64,000 bases of DNA, from positions 186,001-250,000 of the forward strand of contig NZ_FNCN01000004.1 in the NCBI RefSeq assembly GCF_900100605.1, given 5' to 3'. A model generated the notes under the pieces. It saw nothing but the letters and a program-made list of their open reading frames with translations. It made no database searches and was not told the DNA's origin. The first letter of the stretch is position 1. Every line of letters begins with the position of its first letter. Made by a program: the position numbers and the translations under genes. Shown in pieces: positions 25,735 to 48,069 of this stretch. This DNA comes from Sinosporangium album. Its GTDB lineage: Bacteria > Actinomycetota > Actinomycetes > Streptosporangiales > Streptosporangiaceae.

Positions 25735-27261
25735 ATGACAACCCAGGCGGCGGGTGGGGCGTCTGTTAGGCGTGGGGTGGGAGAGTCAGATCGCGAGGCG
25801 AGGATGACCGCTGTTGCCGACGGAGCATTCCGTACGGATGTGTCCCGAGCGCCCTGGGACAGCAAGGAGTGGGAGCAAGGCTATGTGACGGGCGCGGTGC
25901 TGGGCGATCTCGCCTGCTCGGCGGTGGCGTTCGCCGGCCTCATCGGCGTGCGCCTGCTCATGGACGCCTTCTACTGGCCCGAACTGCCGCTGGGCGTGTT
26001 GCTTGCCCTGCTATGGCCGTTAGCCGTGGCGTTCGCCGGCGGCTACCAGTCCCATCGCGTCGGCGACGGGCCGGACGAGTACCGCTCGGTGCTCCAGGCC
26101 GCCGCGGCGATGGCGTCCCTCGTCGCGATCGTCGCCTACGTGACGCAGACGCCGGTCGCCCGCAGCTACGTGATGATCGGCTTTCCCCTGCTCGCCATCA
26201 CCGGCTGCCTCTTCCGGTACGGCTGGCGCAAACGCCTCCACCACCGCAGATCCCAGGGTGAGTGCCTGCGCCGGATGGTGGTCGTCGGCCACCCGGGCAG
26301 TGTCTCCGATCTCATCCGCCAGCTTCGCCGCGAGCGCTACCACGGCATGCAGGTCGTCGCCGTATGCCTGCCGGAGTACCCGCTGGGCAGCCTGGACTGC
26401 GAGATCGACGGTGTGCCCGTGCTCGGCGACTTCGCGGACGTGGCCGAGGTGGTGACGAAGGTGTCGGGCGATGCGGTGGCCGTACTCGCCTGCCCGGAAC
26501 TCGACGGTATCGCGCTGCGCCGTATGGCGTGGCGGTTGGCGGAGACCGACACCGACCTGTTCGTCGCCTCGGCGCTGATGGACGTGGCCGGCCCGCGGAC
26601 CAGCGTGCGCCCGGTGGCCGGGCTGCCGCTGCTGCACGTCGAGCACCCCGTCCTGTCGGGCATGCGGCAGAGCGTGAAGAACGCCTTCGACCGCCTGGTC
26701 GCCGGGCTGGTGCTCCTGCTTCTGTCGCCGCTGCTTCTCGCCATCGTGGTGATGATCCGCTCCACGAGCGAGGGCCCCGCTCTCTTCACCCAGGTCAGAG
26801 TGGGCAAGAACGGGCGGGAGTTCCTGGTCTTCAAATTCCGCACCATGATCGTGGAGGCGGAAAGAGTCCGAGTCGACCTCGCGGCACTCGATGAGGGCAA
26901 CGGGGTGCTCTTCAAGATGAGGAACGATCCACGCGTCACGAGGATCGGCACTTGGTTGCGCCGCTATTCGCTGGACGAGCTCCCCCAGCTTCTCAATGTC
27001 CTGCGCGGTGATATGTCGCTGGTGGGGCCGCGTCCACCGCTGCCGTCAGAGGTCGCGCAGTACGGCACCGACGTGCACCGCAGGCTGGTCGTCAAGCCGG
27101 GAATGACGGGATTGTGGCAGGTCAGCGGGCGTTCCGACCTGTCGTGGGAGGAGTCGGTGAGGCTGGATCTCCGCTACGTGGAGAACTGGTCGCTGACCCT
27201 GGACCTGCAGATCCTCTGGAAGACCTGGGCCGCCGTGGTCCGCGGTACCGGCGCATACTGA
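25735..27261 (+). CDS. polyprenyl glycosylphosphotransferase that starts exopolysaccharide synthesis
   Basis: Transfers a sugar-1-phosphate to a lipid carrier as the first step of repeat-unit assembly. N-terminal membrane helices lie at about 45-150, a nucleotide-sugar-binding-like region follows (RRMVVVGHPGSVSDL), and the C-terminal bacterial sugar transferase domain carries FDRLVAGLVLLLLSPLL, VGKNGREFLVFKFRTM, LPQLLNVLRGDMSLVGPRPP and MTGLWQVSGRSDLSW. It has 508 residues from ATG 25735; ATG 25804 is an alternative. It is the first gene of the Wzx/Wzy-type locus. The sugar is not predictable with confidence. Confidence 0.92.
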   Translation: MTTQAAGGASVRRGVGESDREARMTAVADGAFRTDVSRAPWDSKEWEQGYVTGAVLGDLACSAVAFAGLIGVRLLMDAFYWPELPLGVLLALLWPLAVAFAGGYQSHRVGDGPDEYRSVLQAAAAMASLVAIVAYVTQTPVARSYVMIGFPLLAITGCLFRYGWRKRLHHRRSQGECLRRMVVVGHPGSVSDLIRQLRRERYHGMQVVAVCLPEYPLGSLDCEIDGVPVLGDFADVAEVVTKVSGDAVAVLACPELDGIALRRMAWRLAETDTDLFVASALMDVAGPRTSVRPVAGLPLLHVEHPVLSGMRQSVKNAFDRLVAGLVLLLLSPLLLAIVVMIRSTSEGPALFTQVRVGKNGREFLVFKFRTMIVEAERVRVDLAALDEGNGVLFKMRNDPRVTRIGTWLRRYSLDELPQLLNVLRGDMSLVGPRPPLPSEVAQYGTDVHRRLVVKPGMTGLWQVSGRSDLSWEESVRLDLRYVENWSLTLDLQILWKTWAAVVRGTGAY

Positions 27262-27295
27262 AGCGGCGGCTTTTCGCTACGTTTGACTGTTCAGT

Positions 27296-27323
27296 CCTGT
27301 CCGATGCAGATATATAGGACAGG
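27296..27323. repeat. inverted repeat between sugar transferase and kinase-like genes
   Basis: CCTGTCC and GGACAGG are perfect 7-bp arms around a 14-base AT-rich centre that contains TATATA. This may be an attenuator-like hairpin or an operator of the downstream genes; the 184-bp gap here suggests a separate promoter for the following operon. Confidence 0.35.
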
Positions 27324-27445
27324 CGCGAAAAATGGTCTTATTATGAAAAGGGAAGATTTAGGCATGAGGTAAAGCATGAAGAATGCTCTTACGCTCCTAT
27401 GTGTCTGAGTTTTCCGATTCGTAATGACCAGATGGTGGGATCTCC

Positions 27446-28738
27446 GTGCAACCGATGAGTGACGATGGCCGACCCGCCGCCCCGAGCCATGCCCTGCGTG
27501 CTCTCATGACGCAGCTATGGCTCTCCGAGGACCCCGGCGACGGCTGGCCGGTGCGGGTAGCGCTCGACCACGTGCCGGAGGGCGGACGCCCCGTCGAGCG
27601 CTACGCGGTGACGCCGGACCCCGCCAGGGCCAGGTTCCTGGTGCCCCTGGCCACGCAGGTCTCGGCCGCCGCCTCGGTGAGCCGCTACAACGGCCTGAGG
27701 GCACCCAAACTGCGCGCCTCCCGCGCCCTGCTCGGAGCCGGATTCAGGTCCGGGATCGCACAGCGCCTGCTCCGCAGCCGCCTCGTCGTGGCCATCGACC
27801 GGGACACACCGGACCACATGCTCACCGAGTACCTCCCGACCCGCCACCTCGCTCGGGCGCTGGGCGTGGACCTCGTCGCCGGCATCAGCGTGCGCGACCC
27901 CGACCCCAACCTCAAGCCGATCCTCCAGCTGTTCCGCGTGACCGACGGGGCCCCGGCGGGGTTCGCCAAGGTCGGCTGGAACGCCGCCACGCGGACCCTC
28001 GTCAGTAGGGAGGCCGCGGCGATGGGCCTGGTGCGCGACGCCGTACCCGTGCGCGTGCCCAGAGTGCTCCACCACGGTTCGTGGCAGGGCAGAGTGATCA
28101 CGGTCGTCGAACCGCTGCCCCAGAGCGTGAGCCGCCACACCGACCCCGATCGGCCGCTCGACCCGGCCATCCCGCTCGCCATCGCCGAGAGCACCGGCAC
28201 GTTCACCAAAAACCTCGGCGACTCGACCTACTGGCACGAGCTCACCGGTCAGGCCAGGGAACTGTCGGTGTCCAAGCTCGGCGACGACCTGCGCACAACC
28301 GCGGCGGCCGTCGCCGCCGCGATGGAGGCGGTCGAAGCCTCCCACGGCCTCACCGAACTGCGCTTCGCGCGCTGGCACGGGGACTGGACACCATGGAACG
28401 TCGGCTGGGTCGGCAAGGAGCTCTGGGTATGGGACTGGGAGCACAGCGCGCCCGCCGTACCACTCGGCTTCGACCTGCTCAACTGGCGGTTCCAGGTGGC
28501 GGTCGCGCAGCGCGGGCTGCCGCTGCGCACCGGCGTGAGGGACGCCTTCACCTCCGCGCGGGACGAACTGCCGGCCATCGGCGTCCCGGGTGAGGTCAGG
28601 GAACTGGTGGCCTGGCTCTACCTCTTGGAGATGTTCGTCCGCACATGCCGGCTTCGCGCGGGCGGCGGTGGATGGCACTCCCAGATCTTCCCCGAGGCCA
28701 TACTCGGGGTTCTCGGCGAACTGCGGGCGGCGGTGTGA
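27446..28738 (+). CDS. aminoglycoside phosphotransferase-fold protein
   Basis: Kinase-like protein of 430 residues. The C-terminal half has the APH/choline-kinase catalytic loop and metal site: ARWHGDWTPWNVGW followed by LWVWDWEHSA. The N-terminal 150 residues are family-specific. It could phosphorylate a sugar or small molecule for the neighbouring polysaccharide locus, but the substrate cannot be read from the sequence. GTG 27446 has GGTGGGA 5 bp upstream; ATG 27455 is an alternative. It is followed after 26 bp by the split glycosyltransferase genes. Confidence 0.78.
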   Translation: MQPMSDDGRPAAPSHALRALMTQLWLSEDPGDGWPVRVALDHVPEGGRPVERYAVTPDPARARFLVPLATQVSAAASVSRYNGLRAPKLRASRALLGAGFRSGIAQRLLRSRLVVAIDRDTPDHMLTEYLPTRHLARALGVDLVAGISVRDPDPNLKPILQLFRVTDGAPAGFAKVGWNAATRTLVSREAAAMGLVRDAVPVRVPRVLHHGSWQGRVITVVEPLPQSVSRHTDPDRPLDPAIPLAIAESTGTFTKNLGDSTYWHELTGQARELSVSKLGDDLRTTAAAVAAAMEAVEASHGLTELRFARWHGDWTPWNVGWVGKELWVWDWEHSAPAVPLGFDLLNWRFQVAVAQRGLPLRTGVRDAFTSARDELPAIGVPGEVRELVAWLYLLEMFVRTCRLRAGGGGWHSQIFPEAILGVLGELRAAV

Positions 28739-28764
28739 CCCGGCGCCGTGGAAGGTGGCATTGA

Positions 28765-29214
28765 GTGAAGGTGCTTTTCGTGTGCTCGGGTGGCGGGCAC
28801 CTCGGACAGCTCTACCGGTTGCGGTCGTGGTGGCAGGGTGAGCAACGGCATTGGGTGACCTTCCGGCAGGCCGACGCGGTGTCGCTGCTGGCGGAGGAGA
28901 AGGTCACCTGGGCCTACCATCCGACCACGCGCAACATCCCCAACCTGCTGCGCAACCTGATGCTCGCCTTCCGGCTCCTTCCGCGCTACAAACCCGACGT
29001 CATCGTCAGCAGCGGCGCGGGCGTCGCCTATCCGTTCTTTCTGCTCGCCAAGCTGTACGGCTGCCGCACGGTCTACCTGGAGGTCTACGACCGCATCGAC
29101 TCGGGCACCCTGACCGGGAAACTGTGCTATCCGCTGTCCGACCTGTTCCTGCTCCAGTGGCCCGAGCAGCGCGAGGCGTATCCCAAGGGTGTCGTCGTTG
29201 GGCAGGTGATGTGA
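28765..29214 (+). CDS. Alg14/PssD-like glycosyltransferase subunit
   Basis: Membrane-anchoring half of a two-part GT-B glycosyltransferase (149 residues). The glycine-rich start VLFVCSGGGHLGQLYRL, the segment PDVIVSSGAGVAYPFFLLAKLYG and the end YPKGVVVGQVM match the PssD/Cps14F/Alg14 family. GTG 28765 is the start. It ends one base before the next gene, which encodes the catalytic half, so the two act together on the lipid-linked primer. Confidence 0.88.
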   Translation: MKVLFVCSGGGHLGQLYRLRSWWQGEQRHWVTFRQADAVSLLAEEKVTWAYHPTTRNIPNLLRNLMLAFRLLPRYKPDVIVSSGAGVAYPFFLLAKLYGCRTVYLEVYDRIDSGTLTGKLCYPLSDLFLLQWPEQREAYPKGVVVGQVM

Positions 29215-29215
29215 C

Positions 29216-29752
29216 ATGGCCGAGCGTCCCCTGGTCCTGGTGAGCGTCGGCACCGACCACCACCCCTTCGAACGTCTCATGGGGTGGGTGGAGCGGTGGC
29301 TCGACGCGCGGGCCGGGTCGGTCCGCTGCGTCGTGCAGCACGGCACGTCACGCCCCCCGCGCGGCGCGGAATGCCACGACATGCTGGCGCACGACGAACT
29401 CCAGACGCTGATGCGCGAGGCGGACGCCGTCGTCTGCCAGGGCGGCCCCGGCGGCATCATGGAGTCCCGGATCGCCGGTCGGCTGCCGATCGTGGTGCCG
29501 CGTACGGCGGCGCTCGGCGAGCATGTCGACGACCACCAGGTGAGGTTCACCCACGTGCTCGCCACCCACGGGCGCATCGCCCTGGCCGTCACCGAGCCCG
29601 AGTTCGCGGCCCATCTGGAGAAGGCGCTCGCCGACCCGGAGGGATACCGAGCCGAACACGACGAAAGCGCGGCGGAGGCGACAGCCGTACGCTTCGGCGA
29701 GCTCGTGCGCGGCGTGGTCGCACGGCCGCGCCGCGGACTGCTGCGCCGCTGA
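29216..29752 (+). CDS. Alg13/PssE-like glycosyltransferase subunit
   Basis: Donor-binding half of the split glycosyltransferase (178 residues), homologous to the C-terminal domain of GT28 enzymes. It shows VLVSVGTDHHPFERLM at the N-terminus and CQGGPGGIMESRIAGRLPIVVPR, the nucleotide-sugar loop. A basic C-terminus follows. It adds the second sugar with the Alg14-like partner just upstream; the family usually transfers from a UDP-sugar. A terminator hairpin follows. Confidence 0.88.
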   Translation: MAERPLVLVSVGTDHHPFERLMGWVERWLDARAGSVRCVVQHGTSRPPRGAECHDMLAHDELQTLMREADAVVCQGGPGGIMESRIAGRLPIVVPRTAALGEHVDDHQVRFTHVLATHGRIALAVTEPEFAAHLEKALADPEGYRAEHDESAAEATAVRFGELVRGVVARPRRGLLRR

Positions 29753-29799
29753 ACACAGGCATACGGCAGCGGCTGAAGTCAGACCTACGGCAAGAGAAG

Positions 29800-29827
29800 A
29801 AGGCCCCCGATCGCCCTCGGGGGCCTT
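29800..29827. terminator. terminator hairpin between convergent genes
   Basis: AAGGCCCCCGA and TCGGGGGCCTT make a perfect 11-bp stem with a 6-base loop. It lies 48 bp after the PssE-like stop and 16 bp before the stop of the convergent secreted-protein gene, so it probably serves both. Confidence 0.85.
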
Positions 29828-29842
29828 CGCTCGTAGGCCAGG

Positions 29843-32683
29843 TTACGGCAGCGTCGCCTTGATGCTCATGTCAAAGCTCAGGTCGGCGCTCCACTGGTTG
29901 TTCTGGTGCATCTCCACCGCGATCGTATTGGTGCCCGCCACCAGCGCGGACGCCGGTACGGTGAACCGCACCGGAGTGCGTTCCTCGGCGTTGGTCTGCA
30001 GACCCACCAGGGCCGCGGTGTCGTGCGCGATCGTGCCTTCCGGCAGGTTGTCCCGCCCGACCTCGGTGCCGTTGATGTAGACCACGGCGCCGTCGTCGCG
30101 GATGAGGTCGATCAGCAGCGATTCGTAGGCCGCGGGGTTGGCGACGTTCAGCGTGGTGCGGAAGTAGGCGGTCCAGTGCCGCGGCGTGGTGCCCGCGGGG
30201 ATCAGGGTCGTCTCGCCGCCGTCGCCGTAGCCGAACTCGCCGTTGCCGGCCGCCCAGGCGGAGTCGTCGAACGTCGTGCCCGACCAGGCGGTGCCCTGGT
30301 CGACGCCGTCGTAGACCCACTTCCACTGCGAGCCGAGGTTCATCAGCGAGGTCGTGGACTGCACGTGCAGAGCAGCCGTGCTGGCCGAGCGGTTGCCCGC
30401 GTCGTCGATGGCCCGCACCCAGTACTTGTGGGTGCCCTGCGGGTTGGAGTCGGTGAACGTGGCACTACTGGTCTTGGCGATCACGCGGTCGTCGCGCAGG
30501 ATCTCGTAGTCGGGGGCGCCGGAGTTGTCGGTGCCGGCGTTCCAGGCGAGCTGGGTGCCGCCCGTGGTGCCGGTGGTGCGGAGGTTCGTCGGCGCCGTCG
30601 GGGCCGCGCTGTCGGTGGCGCAGAGCCGTCCGAAGCCGCCCAGCCACTGGTAGCTGCTCGTGGCGCTGTTCCACGAGCCGCGGTTCATGTCGCCGCCGAA
30701 CCAGAGGCACCCGTTGGCATCCTTGATCAACTCCCAGGGGCCGTCGCCGCGGCGGGAGTCGATGGACGGGACGAAGTTCGGGAGGTACTTGCCGGTCTGG
30801 GCGTCCCAGGCGCCGATCCACAGGATCTGGTGGGCGTTCGACCAGTTAGCGGTGTTGTCCCAGCTCGTGGCGTCGTTGAACACGAACTCGGGGCAGTGGC
30901 AGGCGCCGTAGACCACGCCGTCGATCTCGACCGAGGCCTGGAGGTCACCGCCGCCCCTGGTGATGTGCCCGGTGAGACGGGTCAGGTTGTCGCGGGTGTA
31001 GAGCTGGAAGTCGTGCTCGGCGCCGCCCATCCAGACCTTGTCGCCCACTTCCAGAACGGTCTGGCGGTAGTCCCGGTTCTGGGCCGTGGTGCTGGGCAGC
31101 CAGTTGTTCATGCCGGGGACGAGGGCGGCGGGGGTGGCCGTGCTGATCACCGCGAAGCTGTTGGCGGACTGGCCGTTCACGTTGGAGAAGCGCCCGCCGA
31201 AGTAGACGCGGTCACCCTGCGAGCTGGCGTCGAGCTCGATGACGGTGGCGTCGAAGTGCGGCGTCCAGTCGGCGTCGGGGCGCCCGTCGGACACGCGCAC
31301 GCGCGCGGCGGCCACGGCCCAGACCGGGCTGGACAGCGGGTTGCCGCCGCTCACGTGGTTGAAGCCGCCGCCCACGTAGATCCAGTCGCCCTGCCGGTCG
31401 AGCGCCTTGATCTTGACCGGCAGGCCGCCGGCCCTGGTGAAGGTGGTCCGCCAGCCCGGCACCACCGCACCCGTGGTGGGGTCGAGCGCCGCCATGCCGG
31501 CCGTGTTCGGCTCGCCGTTCACATTGGTGAACTCGCCGGCGATGATCACCTTGTCGTCCAGCGTCTGGATGTCCCAGACCTGTCCGTCGAGCGTGGGGAG
31601 GAACTGCGTCCGCCACTCACCAGTGCTGACGTCGAACGCCGCGAGGTACTGCTGCTGGACCTTCTCGCCCGGGCCCGGATTCGCGCCCTTCTGGACGTAC
31701 TGGAACCTGCCGCCGACGTAGATCGTGTTCCCGAGGGTGCCCATCGCCTGCACCTCAAGATGCTCCTCGCCGACACCTCCGCCGACCACGCCGGTCACGC
31801 CCCAGGGCAGCGCCGTGGTGGAGTTGCTGACCAGCGGGGTGACCGTCGAGGCGGGGAGCCCCGCCTCGGGGACCGTACCGTAGGACGCGCTGGTCAGCTT
31901 GGGCCGGATGAAGACCTGCGTGAAGGGGATGGGGTTCCCCTCCGTGCTGTTCTGCCACAGGTAGCTGGTCGCCGACGTGGACGCGCCGCCCATGAGGGAG
32001 CCGTAGCTGAAGCCCTTCTTCCACCCGTGGTTGTTCCACTCGTAGGTGAAGATCCGGTGCGACCCGTTGATGTAGTTCCAGTCGCGGGTGTTGCCGGCCC
32101 CGTAGTTCGTCCCGTTCACGCTGACGGAGCTGAGCTTGTGGGTGGGGTTCGCGTCGAACGTCCAGGACCAGGAGTCGAGGTTGGAGAACTTCCAGCGCAC
32201 CTCCTGCCAGGAGGTGCCGGTGTTGTTCGCCGCGCGGCGCAGCCGTACGCCGTCGGTCAGGGCGTCCACACGACCGCCGTTGAGCAGGCCGTTCACTGTG
32301 TCGCCGGGCAGAGCGGCGGGGGCGAACGCGCCGGTACCGGAGGGCGTGTTGCGGATCGCTCCGGGGGTCCGCTGGCCGGGGTAGTAGAACGTCCAGCCCT
32401 CACGGCCTCTGCCGATGAGGACCCAGCCGCCGCCGTCGGTGGTCATGTCGCAGTAGAACTGCTGCGGTGCGACGAGCTTGGGCGTCTGAAGCCAGTAGAC
32501 GCCGTCCGCGCTCGCTGGAAAGTCCTGTTTGATCGCCCAGCAGGAGAGGGCGGCCTTGTTGCTGCTGGTCCCGTCGCGGGCGACGGCGGCCTGGGCAGGT
32601 GCCGGTGGAGTGCTGACAACGGCCACACCACTGAGTAAGGCGGAAAACGCCAACGCAGTGAGGGCACGACGAAGGGCGGACAT
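29843..32683 (-). CDS. large secreted protein: fibrinogen-like domain, propeller repeats, FN3 and C-terminal beta domain
   Basis: Extracellular multidomain protein of 946 residues. A signal peptide runs to about 32 (APAQAA end). A fibrinogen-C-like domain spans about 46-265 (CWAIKQDFP, YCDMTTDGGGWVLIGRG). A beta-propeller with delta-60-type repeats lies at about 285-690 (IYVGGRFQYV, VIIAGEFTNVNG, IYVGGGFNHVSGG, VYFGGRFSNVNG). An FN3 domain follows (APTAPTNLRTTGTTGG), then a jelly-roll-like tail (FDDSAWAAGNGEFGYGDG). ATG 32683 follows GGGGGGAG. Such domains bind glycans or proteins, so a role at the cell surface with the exopolysaccharide is likely (inference). No catalytic motif is seen. Confidence 0.8.
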   Translation of the reverse strand: MSALRRALTALAFSALLSGVAVVSTPPAPAQAAVARDGTSSNKAALSCWAIKQDFPASADGVYWLQTPKLVAPQQFYCDMTTDGGGWVLIGRGREGWTFYYPGQRTPGAIRNTPSGTGAFAPAALPGDTVNGLLNGGRVDALTDGVRLRRAANNTGTSWQEVRWKFSNLDSWSWTFDANPTHKLSSVSVNGTNYGAGNTRDWNYINGSHRIFTYEWNNHGWKKGFSYGSLMGGASTSATSYLWQNSTEGNPIPFTQVFIRPKLTSASYGTVPEAGLPASTVTPLVSNSTTALPWGVTGVVGGGVGEEHLEVQAMGTLGNTIYVGGRFQYVQKGANPGPGEKVQQQYLAAFDVSTGEWRTQFLPTLDGQVWDIQTLDDKVIIAGEFTNVNGEPNTAGMAALDPTTGAVVPGWRTTFTRAGGLPVKIKALDRQGDWIYVGGGFNHVSGGNPLSSPVWAVAAARVRVSDGRPDADWTPHFDATVIELDASSQGDRVYFGGRFSNVNGQSANSFAVISTATPAALVPGMNNWLPSTTAQNRDYRQTVLEVGDKVWMGGAEHDFQLYTRDNLTRLTGHITRGGGDLQASVEIDGVVYGACHCPEFVFNDATSWDNTANWSNAHQILWIGAWDAQTGKYLPNFVPSIDSRRGDGPWELIKDANGCLWFGGDMNRGSWNSATSSYQWLGGFGRLCATDSAAPTAPTNLRTTGTTGGTQLAWNAGTDNSGAPDYEILRDDRVIAKTSSATFTDSNPQGTHKYWVRAIDDAGNRSASTAALHVQSTTSLMNLGSQWKWVYDGVDQGTAWSGTTFDDSAWAAGNGEFGYGDGGETTLIPAGTTPRHWTAYFRTTLNVANPAAYESLLIDLIRDDGAVVYINGTEVGRDNLPEGTIAHDTAALVGLQTNAEERTPVRFTVPASALVAGTNTIAVEMHQNNQWSADLSFDMSIKATLP

Positions 32684-32841: not shown

Positions 32842-33741
32842 TCAGGAATCCCATGGAAAAGTGGTGTCGAGCAGCCTGAACAGCTCCTGGTTGTGGGGGC
32901 GATAGAATTCGGTCAGCTCGGCCTTGGTCTCCGGATTCATCGGTGGCGCGGGGATATAGTTATGCCGCTTCGCCACGGGCAGCTCGAAACCCGGCAGACC
33001 CAGGAAGTCGACCACCCGGGAGAATGTCGCCCTTTCGTCCTTGTAAAGATCCTCTGCCGCGATGACAAGGATGTTCTCCCGCGGGAAGAGTTCCAGCCAC
33101 CGCTCCACCTGCGGCCGGTAGACACCTCGGTCGCGATAGGTGTGGAAATCGTGGGCCGAGCTGTAGTAATAGGGGTCGGCGGCCATCTTCTCGTGCTCGC
33201 CGCGCAGTCGGTCGGCCTCGGCCGCCAGGGCATCGTCGAAGGTCAGGGGCTCGGTGCCGGCGTCCACCCGCTCCCAGTAGTGCGAGTAGGCGCGCTTCAC
33301 GGGGTCGCGCAGCGAGATGATGATCTTGGTGTTGGGCATGCGGTCGAGCACCCGCTGGGCGACCGGAGGGTAATACATGTAATACGGGCACGCCTCTCCG
33401 GTCAGAGGGCGCACGCCATATTTCTGCTCAAGCTTGTCGAGATGGCCCTCGGTGGCGAAGTGCGAGCGATACCAATCGTCCCCCTTCGCGTAGTTCACAT
33501 AGAAATACCACGGGCTTTTGATTTCCCGGGACTCGGGATACATCGGCATGACCAGCGGATGCTGGACCAGATAGTTCCAAAGCGATGTGGTGCCCCCGCG
33601 CTTAGTTCCGACGATCAGAAAGTCCGGCAAATGCCGCTGCTCCGCGGTCCGTACGGCATAAGCCCGCGTGGCGGCGTTCGCCGCGTCCTTCGCCCAACGC
33701 GGGGACATGTCCTTCAGGCGAGCCCCGAGACTCCGCGACAT
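32842..33741 (-). CDS. PAPS-dependent sulfotransferase
   Basis: Cytoplasmic or membrane-associated sulfotransferase of 299 residues. The 5'-phosphosulfate loop FLIVGTKRGGTTSLWNYL and the 3'-phosphate-binding piece IISLRDPVKRAYSHYWERV are both clear, in the right order, like carbohydrate sulfotransferases. ATG 33741 has GGAG 5 bp upstream; GTG 33747 is an alternative. It sits beside flippase, polymerase and glycosyltransferase genes, so it probably sulfates the polysaccharide repeat unit. Confidence 0.87.
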   Translation of the reverse strand: MSRSLGARLKDMSPRWAKDAANAATRAYAVRTAEQRHLPDFLIVGTKRGGTTSLWNYLVQHPLVMPMYPESREIKSPWYFYVNYAKGDDWYRSHFATEGHLDKLEQKYGVRPLTGEACPYYMYYPPVAQRVLDRMPNTKIIISLRDPVKRAYSHYWERVDAGTEPLTFDDALAAEADRLRGEHEKMAADPYYYSSAHDFHTYRDRGVYRPQVERWLELFPRENILVIAAEDLYKDERATFSRVVDFLGLPGFELPVAKRHNYIPAPPMNPETKAELTEFYRPHNQELFRLLDTTFPWDS

Positions 33742-33790
33742 CGTCACTCCAATTTGAGGTTCATTCGTTTTCTGCCGGCGGTTCCCCGGC

Positions 33791-35344: not shown

Positions 35345-36705
35345 CGGCTGATCACCTTGGGGGAGAGGGACTTGGAGGAGAGATGCCTGGGCGAGAGGGA
35401 GGGGGGAGGCACGGCGGACAGGCGTCTCTCACGTAATCCCAGTGCGGCTGCCGTGAAGATCACGACAAGCTGTGTGCTGTCGAGGCCGTAGTAGAACATC
35501 ATGAACACCGCCATCGTCGGCACCACGTGCAGCCAGATCAGGCCGAGGTCGACCTTTCTGGTGGCCCACGACAGACTCGCCATGAACAGCACATAGAACA
35601 GCAGGGCCGGGAAGCCGAACGAGAACATGATGTTCCAGAACTGGCCCTGAGTGCCGACCGAGACACCGATGGTGTGCGACGGGCGCGGCGCCCCCCAGCC
35701 GAGCAGCGGCGACTCCAGCGTGCGGACGAACGCCTCGGTGTAGATGCCGACCCGGTCGTCGTTGGAGCCGCTCACCTCGGTGCGCGAGGTGATGTTGTCT
35801 ATCACTCCGGTCAAATAGGCCACGACACCGCCCACCGCCATCACGCCGAAGATGACGATCAGTCCCCGGACCTGGCCCCTCATCGCGTACCGCAGCGCCG
35901 CGTAGACCAGGCCGAACCCGACGGCGACCAGCATGCCCCGGTTGAGGGTGGCGAAGGCCGGCACGAGCGAGGCCACGGCGGCGATACCCAGCACGATCCG
36001 CTGCCAGGGGGTCGCTCCGATGCGCATGTAGAGCAGGACGAGCGGGATCATCAGAGCGTAGTGGCTGCCCCAGGCGTTGGTGTACGGGAAGGGAGCGGCG
36101 GGCCGTACGAACGGTTCGTCGGCCCCCCAGATCGTCTGCACCTCGGCGAACTTCGGGAACAGCAGTGATGAGACCAGCTCGTTGGAGGCGATCGAGCCGG
36201 GGATCAGCTGGCCCACCGGGGTGGTGAACGAGCCTTCGGGGAACAAGACGCCGAGGTAGCCGCCGACGACCACGAAGGCCCAGAAGACCACGACGAACCC
36301 GGCTGCCTTGCGCACGGGGAGTCTTGCCCGTGAGCAGTTGTAGACGTAGACGAACACGACGGTGGCGCTGCCGTACGCCATGAGGCGGAAGGCGGCCCCG
36401 ACCAGACGCGGTGCGCTGTCGAGCTGCGTGGCGGACATGATCATGGCCAGCAGGAACAGCAGCCAGACGCCGAACCCGCGGGGCACGAGTGTCCCGCCCC
36501 GGCGCACCATAAAACGGATCATGGGAACGGAGACGATGGCCCCCGCGAAAGGGGCGAGCCCCAGCACCCACCAGAGTGGGTACAGCACGAAGAGGGCCTG
36601 CAGCGGCCATACCGGTAGGTCTCGCTCGGGCGGCGCGTCGGCGCCGCTCGGGGAGCGCGTGGTTCCCAGTCCGTTCACGTCAGCGGTCTCAGATTCCCCT
36701 GCCAC
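35341..36705 (-). CDS. O-antigen polymerase/ligase-like membrane protein (Wzy-like)
   Basis: Membrane protein of 454 residues with about 12 hydrophobic segments and a large periplasmic-type loop (PEGSFTTPVGQLIPGSIASNE to WGADEPFVRPAAPFPYTNAW). The segment RVGIYTEAFVRTLESPLLGWGAPR is the conserved stretch of the Wzy/WaaL family. It probably polymerises the repeat units outside the membrane. GTG 36705 overlaps the upstream GT2 gene by 17 bp. Confidence 0.85.
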   Translation of the reverse strand: MAGESETADVNGLGTTRSPSGADAPPERDLPVWPLQALFVLYPLWWVLGLAPFAGAIVSVPMIRFMVRRGGTLVPRGFGVWLLFLLAMIMSATQLDSAPRLVGAAFRLMAYGSATVVFVYVYNCSRARLPVRKAAGFVVVFWAFVVVGGYLGVLFPEGSFTTPVGQLIPGSIASNELVSSLLFPKFAEVQTIWGADEPFVRPAAPFPYTNAWGSHYALMIPLVLLYMRIGATPWQRIVLGIAAVASLVPAFATLNRGMLVAVGFGLVYAALRYAMRGQVRGLIVIFGVMAVGGVVAYLTGVIDNITSRTEVSGSNDDRVGIYTEAFVRTLESPLLGWGAPRPSHTIGVSVGTQGQFWNIMFSFGFPALLFYVLFMASLSWATRKVDLGLIWLHVVPTMAVFMMFYYGLDSTQLVVIFTAAALGLRERRLSAVPPPSLSPRHLSSKSLSPKVISR

Positions 36706-37651
36706 GTGCGTTGAGGGCGCTGAGTACGCGTTGCCCGGTGGTCACCCTGCCCGCGACCAGGAAGGCGAGGTAGGCCCGGCGCTCCCGCCAGTTGTGGCGG
36801 ACCGCTCGGTAGCCCCATCGCCGCGCGCTGCGGTAGTTGCCCGCCGCGGCCTGGTAGAAGGCGATCTGGCCCTCGATCCGCGCGAGGCCGTGCGGTTCGG
36901 TGGCGAACTCGGGGTGCTTGTCCAGCAGATGGGTGAGCGCATCGGCGATCATGGGGAAGCGGCGCGAGAAGAACGACCCCTGCCAGTTGATGGCCACCAG
37001 GGGCTCGCGCACGCAGTGGATGGGCCCCAGTTTGGCGATGCGCAGCAGCAGGTCGTAGTCCTCGGCGTAGCTGCCGGGGAGCTGCTCGTCCACCGGGCCG
37101 ACCCGTTCGATCAGGACGTCCCGCTTGATGATCAGAGTGGATCCGTTGAGCGCGAAGATGCGGTCCTTCAGCAGGTCGCGGAAGGTGACGGGGCGCTCGG
37201 GCCCGTGCCGCGGGCTCGCCGTGCCGCGGCAGCGGATCTCGATGCCCGTGCCCGCGGCGACGCCGCCGGACGTCGCCAGCAGCTCGGTCTGGGCGCGCAG
37301 CTTGCCCGGCAGCCATTCGTCGTCGTCGTCGCAGAAGGCGACCAGCTCGGTGTCGGCCATCGACACGCCGGTGTTGCGTGAGCCGGCCAGGCCGGGGGTG
37401 TTGGCGTTGACGGTCGTGGTGACCGTACGGCCGGGCCGTGTCGGGACGCCGATGTCGACCGGTTCGGACTGGTCGAAGACGACGACCACGTGGATCGAGC
37501 CGTCATACTCCTGGTCGAGGATGGCGGTGACGGCGCGGCGCAGCAGTTCGAGGCGGTCCCGGGTGGCGACGACGACCGTCACCGAGGGGGCTGCGGTTAT
37601 GGGGGTGTTCGACCCGTTCAGCGCGTTGCTCCTTTCTGGGATACGAGGCAC
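36689..37651 (-). CDS. family 2 glycosyltransferase
   Basis: GT-A enzyme with the GT2 signature: SVTVVVATRDRLELLRRAVTAIL at the start of the fold, NTGVSMADTELVAFCDDDDEWLPGKL with the metal-binding DxD, and EDYDLLLRIAKLG as the later acidic motif. The start is uncertain. GTG 37651 gives 320 residues but lacks a ribosome-binding site. AAGGAG at about 37630 is ideally placed for a CTG codon at 37621. The frame stays open to 37894, but that would run into the divergent gene. It is the first gene of the polymerase-flippase operon. Confidence 0.85.
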   Translation of the reverse strand: MPRIPERSNALNGSNTPITAAPSVTVVVATRDRLELLRRAVTAILDQEYDGSIHVVVVFDQSEPVDIGVPTRPGRTVTTTVNANTPGLAGSRNTGVSMADTELVAFCDDDDEWLPGKLRAQTELLATSGGVAAGTGIEIRCRGTASPRHGPERPVTFRDLLKDRIFALNGSTLIIKRDVLIERVGPVDEQLPGSYAEDYDLLLRIAKLGPIHCVREPLVAINWQGSFFSRRFPMIADALTHLLDKHPEFATEPHGLARIEGQIAFYQAAAGNYRSARRWGYRAVRHNWRERRAYLAFLVAGRVTTGQRVLSALNARGRGI

Positions 37652-37742
37652 GTCTAGGCTAGGCTCGCGGACCAGACATGGTGTCTCGCCGCCCCGTATG
37701 CGGAGAAGCGGCCAACTTTCATGATTATCCGCGTCTAAGGCA

Positions 37743-38855
37743 ATGGGTGGTTTTGCGGTGCGTGGTGGCAGGGTCCTTGTGTCTTCACTCGCGCTGGGGT
37801 GCGCGCTCTCGATGGCTGCGACCGCCCACGCGTCATCAGTCATCGAGGTCGACCCTCCCGAACGTCTCTTCGAAGTCATAGGTGGCCGCATCACCGAGGC
37901 CAGCGGGCTGGCCCTGAGCGAAGACGGTGAGCGGTTCTACACCATCCCTGACGCGGGAGGGCCCGCCGAGGTGTACGTGTTTGGAAAGAAAGGTGAGACA
38001 ACTGCAATTCTCACCCTCCCGACGCGCGACCTGAACGAGGACTGGGAGGACATCGCCGTCGTCAAGGGCAAGGACGGCCGACGGCACATCTACCTGGCCG
38101 ATACCGGAGACGCGTGGTTTGTGCGGCGGGACAAGGGCATGCCCAACCGCACGGAATACCGGCTTCTGAAGTTTCCCGAGCCCGACCCGTCGGTGAAGGG
38201 CGAGACGCCGGTGACGGACGTGATCACCTACACGCTCGCGTACGCCGATGGCGGGTCGCACAATTCCGAGGCGGTAGCCGTACACCCTCGCACGGGTCAG
38301 GTCTTTTTCATCGCCAAGACGGAGAAGGCCGGTGCTCCCGTTCGAGCATGGAGCGCTCCAGCCACTCTTTCGCAAAACCGGACAAACACCCTGCGGCAGA
38401 TTCACGCCGACCTCCGCGTGCAGGGGGCGTCGGGCGCGTCCTTCTCCCCGACCGGCGACCGCCTGGTCGTGCGCAACGCCACCCACGCCTACGTGTGGTG
38501 GATCAAGAACAGCGACGTGGCCGCGTCGCTACGGGCCAAGCCGATCACGGTCGAGCTCCCCACGCAGCGGCAGGGCGAAGGGATCGCCTTCACCATCGAT
38601 GGACAGGCGCTGCTCGTCAACTCCGAGGGTTCACGCCAGGCGGTGTGGAAGGTGCCGCTGCCGAGCGAGGCAGGCGCGCGGGAGGACACCGACAAACAGG
38701 TCGGGGCGAGCCTGCCCCCCACCCTCGCCGAGCCCGCTCCGGGCACGGGCGACAACGATCTTCTGATGATCATCATCGCCCTGGTCGCAGGGACCGGCGG
38801 GCTCGGCCTGCTCACCTACCACCTCGTGCGGGCACGCCGTACGACGGTCAGCTGA
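37743..38855 (+). CDS. exported propeller-like protein with C-terminal membrane anchor
   Basis: Protein of 370 residues with a signal peptide at about 1-30 (VLVSSLALGCALSMAATAHA), a beta-propeller-like middle (ITEASGLALSEDGERFYTIPDAGG, HNSEAVAVHPRTGQVFFIAK, QGEGIAFTIDGQALLVNSEG) and a C-terminal TM helix (LLMIIIALVAGTGGLGLLTY) with a basic end. The function is not known. Its place inside the polysaccharide locus suggests an envelope role. ATG 37743 has no clear ribosome-binding site, so it may be leaderless. Confidence 0.7.
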   Translation: MGGFAVRGGRVLVSSLALGCALSMAATAHASSVIEVDPPERLFEVIGGRITEASGLALSEDGERFYTIPDAGGPAEVYVFGKKGETTAILTLPTRDLNEDWEDIAVVKGKDGRRHIYLADTGDAWFVRRDKGMPNRTEYRLLKFPEPDPSVKGETPVTDVITYTLAYADGGSHNSEAVAVHPRTGQVFFIAKTEKAGAPVRAWSAPATLSQNRTNTLRQIHADLRVQGASGASFSPTGDRLVVRNATHAYVWWIKNSDVAASLRAKPITVELPTQRQGEGIAFTIDGQALLVNSEGSRQAVWKVPLPSEAGAREDTDKQVGASLPPTLAEPAPGTGDNDLLMIIIALVAGTGGLGLLTYHLVRARRTTVS

Positions 38856-38907
38856 CGCGCTCGGCCGACGCGGACACCGCCGGCCGTCGTACGGCACGGC
38901 GGACCGC

Positions 38908-39825
38908 TCAGCGGTCCCGGTCGGTCCGGAGCCTCCCGGCGACCCGGCCCGCCAGCGTCGCCACGAAACCGATGTGCGGGTCGAGCATCACCCGCCTGCC
39001 GTGCGCCGCCGGCGTCGTGCCGGTGTTCCACCCGAACTCCGTGGTCAGCCCGTGCGCGTAGCCCGCGGCCAGAGTGGCCTCGCGCGTGGCCTCGCTCACC
39101 GCGTCGGACTGGCCGAACGGGTAGGCCACCGTCCGGATCGGTACGTCCAGTTCGCCTTCCAGCCGTTCGCGGGACAGACGCAGATCGGCGAGTTGGGCCT
39201 CGGGCGACTCCTGCGCCAGCGTCACGTGGCGCATTGTGTGCGACCCCACCGAGAAGCCGCGCCTGATCAGCTCGTGTGCGTCGTTCCAGTCGAGGAACAG
39301 GTCCTCGTCGCCGGGATGCCCCTCGGGCGCGAGGCGGTCGAGCAGATCGGCGAGGGCCTCCTCGCGGGCGTCGGCCGACATGACGCGCAGGACATCGGAG
39401 GCTTTGCCGTAACAGAGCCTGCCTGCCTGCCCCCGCGTGAAGAGCCGCATGCCGCGCCACTCGACGCGGTCGCGGGAGCTGCGGGCGAACGCCCAGCCCG
39501 CCACCTCCCACCACGCCCGGCTCTCCCGCGACAGCAGCCCGGGCACGAGGAAGAACGTTCCAGGCAGCCCCAGTTTCTCCAGCACGGGTACGGCGAGCCG
39601 CAGGTTGTCGTGGTAGCCGTCGTCCCAGCAGAGCGCCACCGCTCGCGGCGGCAGCGGCCTGCCTTCACGCAGCGCGTCAAGCGCCTGTTCCAGGGGGACC
39701 ACGTTGGCGTAGCGGCGGAGTTGCCGAAGCTGGCGTTCGAGCCCGGAGACCCCCGAGCCCGTCACCGGGAAGCACCATGTGGACTCGACGTTGTGCCATC
39801 CGAAGACCGTTAGCTGAGAGGGCAT
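38908..39825 (-). CDS. polysaccharide deacetylase (NodB fold)
   Basis: Metal-dependent deacetylase of 305 residues. The first motif ALCWDDGYHDN keeps both aspartates, GSHTMRHV gives the two zinc histidines, and YPFGQSD matches motif 3. No signal peptide is seen, so it may act on lipid-linked intermediates or be membrane-associated. ATG 39825 shares one base with the stop of the upstream FemAB-like gene. It probably removes acetyl groups from sugars of the exopolysaccharide. Confidence 0.87.
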   Translation of the reverse strand: MPSQLTVFGWHNVESTWCFPVTGSGVSGLERQLRQLRRYANVVPLEQALDALREGRPLPPRAVALCWDDGYHDNLRLAVPVLEKLGLPGTFFLVPGLLSRESRAWWEVAGWAFARSSRDRVEWRGMRLFTRGQAGRLCYGKASDVLRVMSADAREEALADLLDRLAPEGHPGDEDLFLDWNDAHELIRRGFSVGSHTMRHVTLAQESPEAQLADLRLSRERLEGELDVPIRTVAYPFGQSDAVSEATREATLAAGYAHGLTTEFGWNTGTTPAAHGRRVMLDPHIGFVATLAGRVAGRLRTDRDR

Positions 39826-40940
39826 CAGCGATCTGCTCCAAACCCGTACCGGCGAACCCTGTTGATGGAGTCACGTGTCTCGCGGGCGCGTCGGCGGAGC
39901 TCGGGGTGGCTCTTGACGAACGCGCGCGCCGCCCGGGGGGGAGCGTGCCAGGCCCGGTAGAGCGCGGAGCGCACCGACGGCCGTGACATCCAGCCCTCGG
40001 CCAGCGGGATGTGCGAGCTGGCGAAGAACTCCTTGTACGGCTCGCCGCCCTTGCCGAGGTCGATGGTGGTCAGGCCGTCGGCCGCAGCGGCCTGCGCGAA
40101 CCTTAGCAGCATGACCAGCCCAGGGGAGTACTGCCCGAAGGCGTCGGCGTCGTAGGAGCCGAACCACCGCTCGTAGACGGTCGCCGACCGCAGCCCGAAC
40201 TCCACCGCCACCGGTGTGTCGCCTGCGTAGAGGACACTCAGCAGCCCGCCGTACTCCCTACCGGTCTCCTCGAAGCTCTGCTCGAAGCTCTCCTCCACGA
40301 GCTGTTTCACCCACGGCCATGTGAACCGGTCGGAGGCGCCGGTGCGGCGGTAGTGGGCGGACTTCCACGTCATCATCAGGCGGAGCATGGCCGGGTCGCG
40401 CGAGCCGTACTCCAGCCGGAGTTCGCCGTGTTCGCGGCCGAGCTTGCGGTCCTTGCGCTCGACCGAACCGATCGCGGACTTCGTCAGCGCCCGGCGGGCG
40501 TCGCGGTAGGCGGCGTAGCCTTGGCCGAGGTCCATCACGGGGGACCCCACCCGGATCGCGTCCCTGCCGTCTTCGGGGATCTGCGCGGCCAGAAGATGGT
40601 CGAATTCGAACACCGACAGCGACGCTGCCTCTAGCATGTCGGCCGGTGACAGGCGCACGCCCGGGCGGTGCACGACCCCCTGGCAGTCCGACACCGACAG
40701 TCCGATGGCGCGGGCCACGCCCGAGCCGTGCCGTTCGAACGGGAGGAACCCCGCGATGCCCTGGTCGTCCTCGAAGACGGCGACCTCGCAGTGAGGCCGC
40801 ACCCGGGCGATCGCCAGCGCGAACCCCGGCGACAGGAACGGGCTGTCCAGGCCGTGGCCGGCCATGTGCCACGTCCGCCACAGGGCCAGGTCGTCGGGAC
40901 CGAGGTCACCGGGTTTGACTGATTCTGCTCGTGTGCCCAT
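39825..40940 (-). CDS. FemAB/CelD-type GNAT-fold protein
   Basis: Protein of 371 residues with the acyltransferase-6 arrangement seen in CelD/BcsL and FemAB proteins of polysaccharide loci: FEDDQGIAGFLPFERHGSG in the N-terminal half, and GGLLSVLYAGDTPVAVEFGLRS then FGSYDADAFGQYSPGLVML and IDLGKGGEPYKEFF in the C-terminal GNAT-like half. It may transfer an acyl or aminoacyl group to the glycan. ATG 40940 follows GAGGGG and begins a two-gene operon with the deacetylase. Confidence 0.78.
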   Translation of the reverse strand: MGTRAESVKPGDLGPDDLALWRTWHMAGHGLDSPFLSPGFALAIARVRPHCEVAVFEDDQGIAGFLPFERHGSGVARAIGLSVSDCQGVVHRPGVRLSPADMLEAASLSVFEFDHLLAAQIPEDGRDAIRVGSPVMDLGQGYAAYRDARRALTKSAIGSVERKDRKLGREHGELRLEYGSRDPAMLRLMMTWKSAHYRRTGASDRFTWPWVKQLVEESFEQSFEETGREYGGLLSVLYAGDTPVAVEFGLRSATVYERWFGSYDADAFGQYSPGLVMLLRFAQAAAADGLTTIDLGKGGEPYKEFFASSHIPLAEGWMSRPSVRSALYRAWHAPPRAARAFVKSHPELRRRARETRDSINRVRRYGFGADR

Positions 40941-40965
40941 GGCCCCTCGCCGGCTGTGTGGTTAA

Positions 40966-40989
40966 GCGCGTTGATGACCGATAACGCGC
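40966..40989. promoter_or_regulatory. inverted repeat in the divergent promoter region
   Basis: GCGCGTT and AACGCGC are perfect 7-bp arms around a 10-bp centre, 26 bp upstream of the FemAB-like gene and within the 256-bp divergent region that also serves the Wzz-like gene. This suits a dimeric regulator site; regulator unknown. Confidence 0.35.
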
Positions 40990-41196
40990 AAAATTAGCGT
41001 CCCGATGTTATACGTGATGATCTACAAATTGGGGCTAAACGCCAAGTACATCCCTTTTGGATCATCAGGAATCGGCAATGAAAGGGTATTCTGGGGTGGC
41101 CTTTGCCGCTCGCCGAGATCGTCGCCCAGTCAATGAGATCGTTTGGCCGGAGCCACGAATGCCAGAGCCACGGATGGAAGGGTTCCAGGGAACCTG

Positions 41197-42879
41197 ATGA
41201 GCACGACCCCTCGCGTGCAAGCCATGGAGATGGCCGACTATGCCTCTCTTCTGCGGCGCCGGTGGTGGGTGATGGTGGTGGGCGCGGCCCTCGGCGTCGC
41301 CGTCGCGGCACTTGCGGTGGTCACCCTGCCCGACGTCTACACTGGCAAGGCGACCGTTCTCGTCACCCCTGAAGACCCCGAGAGCCGTAACACCGAGATC
41401 AACCTCGACACCGAGTCGGGGCGTGTGCGCGGGGTCGAGGTGGTCAAGCGGGCGCAGGCGATCCTCGGCACCTCCGAGGGCTTCGAGACGCTGATCGAGC
41501 GGGTCACGGTGAGCGCGCCGCGCGACTCGTCGCTGCTGGCCATCTCCTACACGGCGGCCGATCCCACGCGTGCCCGCGACGGCGCCAACGCCTTCGCCAA
41601 CGCCTACCTCGCCCACCGCAAGGCGCGGGCCGAATCACGCCTGAAAAGGCAGGTGAACAGCCTCCAGAGCCAGGTCGACAAGCTCAAGGAGAGGCTTGAA
41701 AGGGCGCCCAAGGACGACCTTGACGAACGCAACCTGATCAACGGCGAGCTCCAGGCGTACTCCTCCAGACTCGCCGATGTCCGGATCGATGCCGCCGATG
41801 TGTCGGTGGGCGAGATGCTCACCCTGGCCGCGATGCCGAAGCAGTCGTCGTTCCCCGACCCGATGATGTTCCTGCCCGCCGGGTTGTTCGGCGGGATCCT
41901 GCTCGGCGCGGCCATCGCGCTCATGGTCGACCGGGCCGACAACCGGGTGCGTGCGGCCTCCGACGTGCGCCGGGTGCTCGGCGCGCCAATCCTGCTCAAC
42001 CTCCCGCGCAGCCGCAAAACGGCCGCGCTCGGCATCCAGTCGGCCCGCAGCCGCATCGGGCAGCGCTTCCACGAGTTGAGCCACGCGATCACCGCCCGGC
42101 TCGGCGACGGGCCCGGCAATCAGGTCATCCTGGTGACCGGTGCGAGTGAGGGCATGGGCTCGAACATCGTGGCCGTCAACATTGCCGCCGCGCTGGCCCG
42201 GACCGGCTCCGACGTCATGCTCGTCAACGCGGACCTGCGGTCGGAGGTGAGCAGCAGGCTGCTCGGGGTGGCCGAGCAGCAGGGCCTGTCGGAGGTGCTG
42301 CTCGGCACCTCCACGCTGTCGGAGGTGGAGACGCGGGCCGCGATGCCGCCCTCGTTGCGTGTGTTGTCGCGCGGGCACGAGACCGAGCTGGTGGTGGACA
42401 TGCTGCAAGGTGAGCGCATGTCGCGTCTCGTCGACTCGCTGCGCGACAGGTCACGCTATGTCGTGATCGAGGCGCCTTCGACCTCGGCAGGGGCCGACGC
42501 CCAAGCGCTCGCCCAGCTCGCGGACCTCGTCCTCATGGTGGTCGAAGTACCGAAGACCCGCTTCACCGACATCCGCGATGGCCTGCGGCAACTCGATCAG
42601 GTCGGCGCTGAACTGCCCGGCGCGGTGGTCATCCCGTCGCAGTCGGACGAGGGTCTGGCCGGCGCCGTACCGCCCTCGGTCATGACCTACGAGGGGAACG
42701 AACCGGGCGGTAAGAAGGCCGGCAAGCGCGGCAAGCCCGGAAAGAGGGACAGGGAGCTGATCGAGGACATCGTTGAGCGGGGCGCGGTCGGCTCCGACGA
42801 GGACGGCCTCAGCACCGCGACCTTCCCCGCCGTGCGGAACGGCGACCTGTCCATCATCAAAGACCACGTCAAACGCTGA
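41197..42879 (+). CDS. Wzz-type chain-length protein fused to a degenerate BY-kinase-like ATPase
   Basis: Membrane protein of 560 residues that should govern chain length or export of the polysaccharide. It has a Wzz domain with TM helices at about 24-46 and 230-250 and a coiled-coil stretch between (SRLKRQVNSLQSQVDKLKERL). A CpsD/Wzc-like P-loop domain follows. The P-loop reads GASEGMGSN instead of the canonical GxxxxGK[ST], the A' motif VNADLR has Asn for the first Asp, and Walker B has IEAP for IDTP. No tyrosine cluster is present at the C-terminus. It is probably catalytically dead. ATG 41197 follows AGGGAA. Confidence 0.85.
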   Translation: MSTTPRVQAMEMADYASLLRRRWWVMVVGAALGVAVAALAVVTLPDVYTGKATVLVTPEDPESRNTEINLDTESGRVRGVEVVKRAQAILGTSEGFETLIERVTVSAPRDSSLLAISYTAADPTRARDGANAFANAYLAHRKARAESRLKRQVNSLQSQVDKLKERLERAPKDDLDERNLINGELQAYSSRLADVRIDAADVSVGEMLTLAAMPKQSSFPDPMMFLPAGLFGGILLGAAIALMVDRADNRVRAASDVRRVLGAPILLNLPRSRKTAALGIQSARSRIGQRFHELSHAITARLGDGPGNQVILVTGASEGMGSNIVAVNIAAALARTGSDVMLVNADLRSEVSSRLLGVAEQQGLSEVLLGTSTLSEVETRAAMPPSLRVLSRGHETELVVDMLQGERMSRLVDSLRDRSRYVVIEAPSTSAGADAQALAQLADLVLMVVEVPKTRFTDIRDGLRQLDQVGAELPGAVVIPSQSDEGLAGAVPPSVMTYEGNEPGGKKAGKRGKPGKRDRELIEDIVERGAVGSDEDGLSTATFPAVRNGDLSIIKDHVKR

Positions 42880-47994: not shown

Positions 47995-48069
47995 GCTCGC
48001 CACGTTAACGGTGAAATATGCGTTTTTACTGGTCTTTGAGGGGAAGGGGGGGTGGTCTTTGACTGCGTA

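Follow-up and report, generated by a model that had tools for sequence, protein, structure and literature searches.

Sulfated polysaccharides are familiar chiefly from animals, algae, cyanobacteria and certain marine bacteria. Here we describe a gene cluster of the soil actinomycete Sinosporangium album that likely directs the synthesis of a Wzx/Wzy-type heteropolysaccharide, which would receive its sulfate in the cytosol while still bound to the lipid carrier and would perhaps serve as a spore or sporangium matrix. The cluster lies in a window of 64,000 nucleotides (bases 186001-250000 of contig C64; the genome comprises 7.06 Mb in 97 contigs and is 99% complete), and its positions are given as those of the window. 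This reading is neither unique nor the first such proposal: among the papers listed from the mainly open-access literature searched, one actinomycete gene cluster has been proposed for a sulfated polysaccharide, wps-1 of Actinoplanes missouriensis (AMIS_7280-7380, with the adjoining AMIS_7390; PMC13390465).

Tezuka and Ohnishi reported squashed sporangia after knock-out of wpsH (encoding a heparan-sulfate-type sulfotransferase), wpsI, the Wzx, Wzy and Wzz genes and two glycosyltransferase genes, while the growth of wps-1 mutants was normal (PMC13390465). Their 2026 article proposes that the sporangium matrix contains a sulfated polysaccharide and describes proof as awaited. Knock-out of AMIS_7390, which encodes a sulfate adenylyltransferase/adenosine 5'-phosphosulfate (APS) kinase, caused severe sporangium defects that were called unexpected; the enzyme family is discussed there in relation to sulfur amino acids, and the term 'PAPS' (3'-phosphoadenosine 5'-phosphosulfate) is absent from the main text (PMC13390465). 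Supply of PAPS to the two wps-1 sulfotransferases would simply explain this defect.

Outside the actinomycetes, the xss cluster for synechan in Synechocystis resembles the window cluster, by description, in its Wzx/Wzy pathway and in sulfotransferases placed among glycosyltransferases, but it is cyanobacterial, encodes eight glycosyltransferases and two sulfotransferases, and has a product whose sulfate was shown chemically (PMC8205485). The marine strains Vibrio KMM 8419 and Cobetia marina KMM 1449, likewise compared by description, pair a sulfated capsular polysaccharide with a biosynthesis cluster (PMC11641403, PMC11766843). Sulfate was also reported for the exopolysaccharide of an actinomycete, Streptomyces rochie OF1, where the likeness is in the product (PMC9911575), and a nodH sulfotransferase has been described in Frankia (PMC5059922). 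Two articles state that bacterial sulfated polysaccharides are known only from cyanobacteria (2021, PMC8205485; 2026, PMC13390465), a statement that contrasts with the marine bacterial examples and the one Streptomyces report.

The window cluster shares with wps-1 the clustering of Wzx, Wzy, a Wzz-like protein, a family 2 glycosyltransferase (GT2), a heparan-sulfate-type sulfotransferase, a kinase-like protein and a family 26 glycoside hydrolase (GH26) protein, in a comparison made by the published description of wps-1 rather than with AMIS protein sequences (PMC13390465). It differs in its initiator, which is of the WbaP type, and in encoding an Alg14/Alg13 (PssD/PssE) pair as well as a secreted propeller protein, whereas wps-1 has a WecG-type GT26 glycosyltransferase, a methyltransferase, two sulfotransferases rather than one and an adjoining gene of the APS kinase family (PMC13390465). 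The GT26 enzyme, the second sulfotransferase and the APS kinase gene were found nowhere among the window open reading frames (ORFs) scanned, and all three occur on contig C28 of the same genome. The window cluster is a sister system of wps-1 with a different initiator and different glycosyltransferases, and represents a second, widespread cluster type. Its features are as follows (domain names with E-values, bit scores with cut-offs).

23964..25607, minus strand: secreted CBM96-GH26-like protein (CBM96 1.7e-20, Glyco_hydro_26 4.3e-6), divergent from the operon and outside the range first annotated
25735..27261, plus strand: initiating polyprenyl-phosphate hexose-1-phosphate transferase, WbaP/WcaJ type (Bac_transf 5.6e-68; TIGR03025 420.8 bits, cut-off 295.6)
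27446..28738, plus strand: APH-like phosphotransferase (APH 3.1e-6; HGDxxxxN motif intact)
28765..29214, plus strand: Alg14/PssD-type half of a two-part glycosyltransferase (Alg14 8.6e-13; PssD/Cps14F equivalog NF041549 120.1 bits, cut-off 110)
29216..29752, plus strand: Alg13/PssE-type half of a two-part glycosyltransferase (Glyco_tran_28_C 5.5e-10)
29843..32683, minus strand: secreted fibrinogen-like/propeller protein of 946 residues (NF040941 4e-22; N-terminal hydrophobic segment)
32842..33747, minus strand: sulfotransferase, heparan-sulfate (NDST/3-OST) type (Sulfotransfer_1 8.1e-14, 52 bits, cut-off 22)
33791..35344, minus strand: Wzx flippase (Polysacc_synt 1e-12; 13 hydrophobic segments)
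35341..36705, minus strand: Wzy polymerase (Wzy_C 2.9e-10; 8 hydrophobic segments)
36689..37894, minus strand: GT2 glycosyltransferase (Glycos_transf_2 4e-15, domain beginning at residue 106; start uncertain, as the ORF overlaps the divergent gene at 37743)
37743..38855, plus strand: exported protein with a membrane anchor (one C-terminal hydrophobic segment), weakly phytase/esterase-like (Phytase-like 5.4e-4, under cut-off)
38908..39825, minus strand: polysaccharide deacetylase, lineage-specific (Polysacc_deac_1 1.1e-17)
39825..40940, minus strand: FemAB-fold acyltransferase, lineage-specific (Acetyltransf_6 7.3e-32)
41143..42879, plus strand: Wzz-type co-polymerase fused to a bacterial tyrosine kinase (BY-kinase)-like AAA_31 domain (AAA_31 4.6e-6; two hydrophobic segments)

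ORF and Pfam analysis thus recovered each part named in the first-pass annotation, namely the sugar-phosphate transferase, Alg14/Alg13 pair, GT2, Wzx, Wzy, deacetylase, FemAB-like protein and sulfotransferase, and added the APH-like kinase, the propeller protein, the anchored protein and the CBM96-GH26 protein. The Wzz-like protein is also in place, but its Wzz match is weak (6.7e-5; 23.6 bits against the Pfam cut-off of 25.5). The initiator, Alg14, Alg13-type, GT2, Wzx and Wzy proteins all score above their Pfam cut-offs, and the initiator and the PssD half above NCBIfam cut-offs too; the Alg13-type half falls below those (WelK 81.6 bits; PssE 54.5 bits against a cut-off of 120). As judged from these matches, the initiator, glycosyltransferases, Wzx and Wzy form the set by which a Wzx/Wzy-dependent polysaccharide pathway is recognised. 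The locus is indeed split over divergent operons, with five blocks on alternating strands: 25735-29752 (plus), 37894-29843 (minus), 37743-38855 (plus), 40940-38908 (minus) and 41143-42879 (plus). In the second block the frames for the propeller protein, sulfotransferase, Wzx, Wzy and GT2 are consecutive, either separated by no more than about 160 bases or overlapping slightly, a spacing that fits an operon.

Conservation of the cluster across actinomycetes

The gene set was compared by tblastn in the six genomes with the closest sulfotransferases (64-83% identical to that of the window). All six matched WbaP, APH, the propeller protein, the sulfotransferase, Wzx, Wzy, GT2, the anchored protein, Wzz and GH26, while the Alg14/Alg13 pair was found in five (not in G039) and the deacetylase and FemAB protein in three. 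Scanning a genome collection with a sulfotransferase alignment returned at least 80 loci from named species, the best 80 of which were analysed; four of the six genomes (G015, G027, G192 and G196) are probably also among these. Since the sulfotransferase was the query, its own presence in these loci is by construction. Among the 64 loci with full flanks (longer than 20,500 bases), which are not independent because many come from Micromonospora, tblastn matched Wzx in 64, GT2 in 62, APH in 61 and Wzy, Alg13 and Alg14 in 60 each, and the sulfotransferase together with all six of these in 57. Accessory matches were less regular (propeller protein 59, GH26-like 46, Wzz 30, WbaP 12, deacetylase 4 and FemAB 4); over all 80 loci the anchored protein was matched in 10, the deacetylase in four and FemAB in five. 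In all 64, Wzx is found immediately upstream of the sulfotransferase match, 11-378 bases away, and the gene order kept in the six genomes and in loci from named species indicates clustering beyond chance.

Of the 80 loci, that of Sinosporangium siamense is the closest to the window locus (sulfotransferase 86%, Alg14 and KorB 90% identity), and the closest relatives of the cluster are found in Sinosporangium, Planomonospora and Planobispora. It spreads from Streptosporangiaceae to Micromonosporaceae, the cluster or its core occurring in Micromonospora, Salinispora, Actinomadura and partly Phycicoccus. Micromonospora sulfotransferases are 45-50% identical to that of the window, against 37-38% for the host's own C28 paralogue. 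In Micromonospora the genes run in one direction (GH26, propeller protein, Wzz where detected, Wzy, Wzx, sulfotransferase, APH, Alg14, Alg13, GT2), and the division into divergent operons is therefore a trait of some lineages and not of the system.

A reverse test, which started from Alg14 and covered 200 genomes of the order, avoided the bias of the sulfotransferase query. Alg14 was present in 63 of these genomes, with a sulfotransferase within 8 kb in 54 (26 of 26 within 8 kb among the matches listed, and 28 of the other 37 within 4 kb by profile search) and on another contig in four. The sulfotransferase is a regular member of the cluster. Nor is it rare: relatives of the sulfotransferase (E <= 1e-20) occur in 173 of the 200 genomes, and a sulfated polysaccharide has already been proposed from a related actinomycete cluster (PMC13390465).

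The sulfotransferase and its acceptor

By sequence and predicted fold, the window sulfotransferase is of the heparan-sulfate (NDST/3-OST) type. In profile searches against the PDB its best solved relatives were 3rnl from Alicyclobacillus, 3-OST-3, NDST-1, 3-OST-5 and 3-OST-1 (4.4e-40 for 3rnl, 7.7e-33 for 3-OST-3 and 3.4e-29 for NDST). The structural model (mean predicted local distance difference test score, pLDDT, of 91.3) gave VIA Z scores of 27.5 to 3rnl and 26.6 to 3-OST-3. Among the rows listed from these searches, which covered solved structures, Z was 24.5-27.5 for 3rnl, 3-OST and NDST chains and at most 14.6 for olefin-synthase and curacin domains, TPST and SULT. The PAPS P-loop motif GTKRGGTTSL occupies residues 47-56, and the 3'-phosphate would be bound by R147 and S155 in LRDPVKRAYSHYW; both PAPS-binding motifs noticed at first sight are thus intact, and R50, T54, S55, R147 and S155 are invariant in all 23 aligned sulfotransferases. 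The enzyme shares its fold and PAPS motifs with human NDST-1, the human 3-O-sulfotransferases and 3rnl, but structural alignments put its identity to them at 20-35% and it lacks their catalytic Glu. It also differs from the Golgi heparan-sulfate enzymes in that hydropathy analysis found no hydrophobic segment, from which we infer cytosolic action on a lipid-linked unit.

Like the Nod-factor and mycobacterial sulfotransferases, the enzyme might instead act on a small molecule or a membrane lipid and just happen to be located in a polysaccharide cluster. Rhizobial Nod factor and mycobacterial products are known substrates of bacterial sulfotransferases (PMC8205485). Besides the single PF00685 match on C64, the genome contains four more. 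We consider this alternative quite unlikely, given that the enzyme groups in fold and sequence with polysaccharide sulfotransferases and away from SULT, TPST and Stf9 (Z 12.2-14.6), a closeness that favours a polysaccharide acceptor, and given the invariable position next to Wzx in the full-flank loci and its retention in most Alg14-anchored clusters. Two of the other PF00685 sulfotransferases lie outside both clusters, at C33:40865 and C18:46505 (L003, L005).

The active site raises a second alternative, that the homologue is catalytically dead or of different chemistry and the polymer free of sulfate. The canonical Glu before the HFF/QFF motif, presumably the catalytic base of NDST and 3-OST and placed at position 78 by sequence alignment, is absent from all 23 aligned sequences, where this position is Ser in 18 (including the window enzyme), Thr in two, Gly in two and Ala in one, and all 23 have Arg where NDST and 3-OST have their P-loop Lys. 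Such an Arg is also used by tyrosylprotein sulfotransferases, however, and the PAPS-contact residues are invariant across genera, as are Lys77 and Glu118 in the 23 sequences. CysDN and APS kinase genes adjoin the cluster in some relatives, as detailed below, and knock-out of wpsH has a phenotype (PMC13390465). We consider this second alternative very unlikely. With its Glu replaced, the sulfotransferase may use another base; because of this replacement its activity is inferred, and it is not filed as a heparan-sulfate sulfotransferase.

PAPS supply and the second cluster

The sole APS kinase of the genome and its sole CysD above cut-off are both on contig C28, a second CysD match being far under the cut-off. 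At C28:150000-172000 (L037, L038), CysD, CysN, APS kinase and a CysQ-like protein (115 bits, under the cut-off of 229) are encoded in one stretch with a sugar-phosphate transferase, a GT2, a WecG-type GT26, two sulfotransferases, a flippase-like protein, Wzy, Wzz, a GH26-like match and a methyltransferase. The order Wzx, sulfotransferase, APH, Wzy, Wzz on C28 equals that of WpsG-WpsK in wps-1, gene orientation aside (PMC13390465), and the stretch is probably a second sulfated-polysaccharide cluster of the wps-1 type. Window proteins are 21-39% identical to their C28 counterparts (63% for WbaP). A PF01507 PAPS_reduct match on C28 was rejected as CysH, because NCBIfam identifies the protein as CysD, the sulfate adenylyltransferase small subunit. 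The C28 APS kinase was likewise rejected as a complete PAPS synthase: its N-terminal half is only weakly ATP sulfurylase-like (61 bits against a cut-off of 323), and CysD and CysN are therefore taken for the first step.

Among the matches listed, a sulfotransferase lies within 20 kb of APS kinase in 114 of 128 genomes (median 6.9 kb), a count that mixes wps-1-type and window-type sulfotransferases; in the other 14 the two are on different contigs, and none of the 128 has them farther than 20 kb apart on the same contig. In G039 and G196, the key linkage cases, CysD, CysN and APS kinase are within about 15 kb of the single sulfotransferase match (E <= 1e-20). Of the 12 closest loci from named species (L053-L064), six carry CysDN and/or APS kinase (L057-L060, L062 and L064) and six do not, and a Kineosporia locus (L118) is one further locus of the 80 with CysDN. 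PAPS genes can thus adjoin a window-type cluster, as the first-pass annotation had suggested looking for, and in this genome they stand with the wps-1-like one. The mere presence of APS kinase was dropped as evidence, since all 200 genomes of the order have a match, as do all 50 of the genomes taken from the 80 loci.

Accessory proteins, proposed pathway and role

The APH-like kinase (27446-28738) is possibly the counterpart of the 'protein kinase-like' WpsI; its HGDxxxxN motif is present in the window protein and in 14 of 17 loci inspected. The propeller protein (29843-32683) consists of an N-terminal fibrinogen-like YCDxxxxGGGW domain, a beta-propeller-like middle and a C-terminal beta region, and its Micromonospora matches are about 30% identical. 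Its model has a mean pLDDT of 66.4 but scores at least about 89 across residues 311-520, where Foldseek returned propeller matches; because the first 300 residues are poorly modelled, only the propeller-like middle is claimed for this secreted protein, which could possibly be a lectin or scaffold for the polymer. In the Wzz protein, the BY-kinase-like domain has a degenerate P-loop, its Lys missing in the window and in the nine relatives whose motif was read (17 loci inspected), and the protein is probably a pseudokinase co-polymerase.

Several neighbouring genes were also recorded. A pair at 42950-45881, which we take to be 2-oxoacid:ferredoxin oxidoreductase-like, adjoins the cluster here and in G181, its B half also in L056, and a second polysaccharide deacetylase (46408-48003) lies beyond it. 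Upstream, the gene at 18572-20845 encodes a histidine kinase that carries a NIT domain, a type that senses nitrate/nitrite, and a partial match to this kinase lies near the G181 cluster.

Support for a sulfated exopolysaccharide, which the first-pass annotation had called probable and which we retain as the best reading, comes from gene content, conservation, enzyme family, predicted fold, PAPS-binding residues and linkage to PAPS genes. In the proposed pathway, the WbaP-type enzyme would load hexose phosphate onto undecaprenyl phosphate, and the PssD/PssE-like pair and the GT2 enzyme would extend it to an oligosaccharide of about three sugars. Inside the cell, the sulfotransferase would transfer sulfate to this lipid-linked unit from PAPS, made by CysD, CysN and APS kinase from the wps-1-like locus on the other contig. 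Wzx would then flip the sulfated unit and Wzy polymerise it under the control of Wzz, while the secreted GH26 and propeller proteins may bind or trim the polymer and, in this lineage, the deacetylase and FemAB-fold enzyme may tailor it. The enzyme activity, the order of these steps, the sugars and the use as a spore or sporangium matrix are predictions, the last by analogy with wps-1.

Several points, in addition to the replaced catalytic Glu, weigh against this interpretation. Chemical proof of sulfate for this cluster type was not found among the papers listed from the mainly open-access literature searched. No PAPS genes are present among the window ORFs scanned, the 128-genome linkage count is a mixed one, G039 as one of the two key linkage cases is without Alg14/Alg13, and APS kinase is also found in genomes without a sulfotransferase, so that its presence is uninformative. 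Five of the 63 Alg14 genomes have no sulfotransferase nearby (282 kb away in G130) or none at all (G162, G053, G031 and G017); G031, G130 and G017 have the three weakest Alg14 matches. The role in sporulation is drawn by analogy, and wpsB mutants, affected in the second wps-1 sulfotransferase, formed sporangia that were normal by scanning electron microscopy, yet released fewer spores (PMC13390465).

A sulfated polymer could also play no part in development and simply form a capsule or biofilm matrix of vegetative cells, which would conflict only with the last step of our interpretation and which we regard as quite possible, if short of probable. The genera that hold the cluster or its core, listed above, differ in development, and Micromonospora and Actinomadura form no sporangia as a rule, a further point against a sporangial role. 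Against a purely vegetative function, the closest cluster relatives are in Sinosporangium, Planomonospora and Planobispora, all sporangium formers. Loss of wps-1 genes alters the shape of sporangia but leaves growth normal (PMC13390465). With sporangium formers as closest relatives and non-sporangial genera also holding the cluster, a spore-surface or general envelope role is equally possible.

Heparan-like N-deacetylation and N-sulfation, considered because a deacetylase accompanies the NDST-type enzyme, was put aside as the core function, the deacetylase being so rare among the 80 loci. The genome encodes four NDP-sugar dehydrogenases above cut-off, and as 13 of 14 control genomes also have such enzymes, they do not decide on the use of uronic acid. 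A more far-reaching model, which we think unlikely as a whole but worth stating, is that of a glycosaminoglycan-like polymer common to the envelope or spore matrix of spore-forming Streptosporangiaceae and Micromonosporaceae, in which uronic acid or galactose would be added by the PssD/PssE-like pair and sulfate in the cytosol by a heparan-enzyme relative with a changed active site, with PAPS genes at the cluster or its sister cluster and two systems in some species, the present one included.

If the interpretation of a Wzx/Wzy polymer sulfated on its lipid carrier is true, actinomycetes of complex morphology would commonly produce sulfated polysaccharides, through a second cluster type beside wps-1 and with a linked PAPS supply. 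It would also bring new cytosolic polysaccharide sulfotransferases to glycan engineering, and what holds sporangia and spores together would become directly testable.

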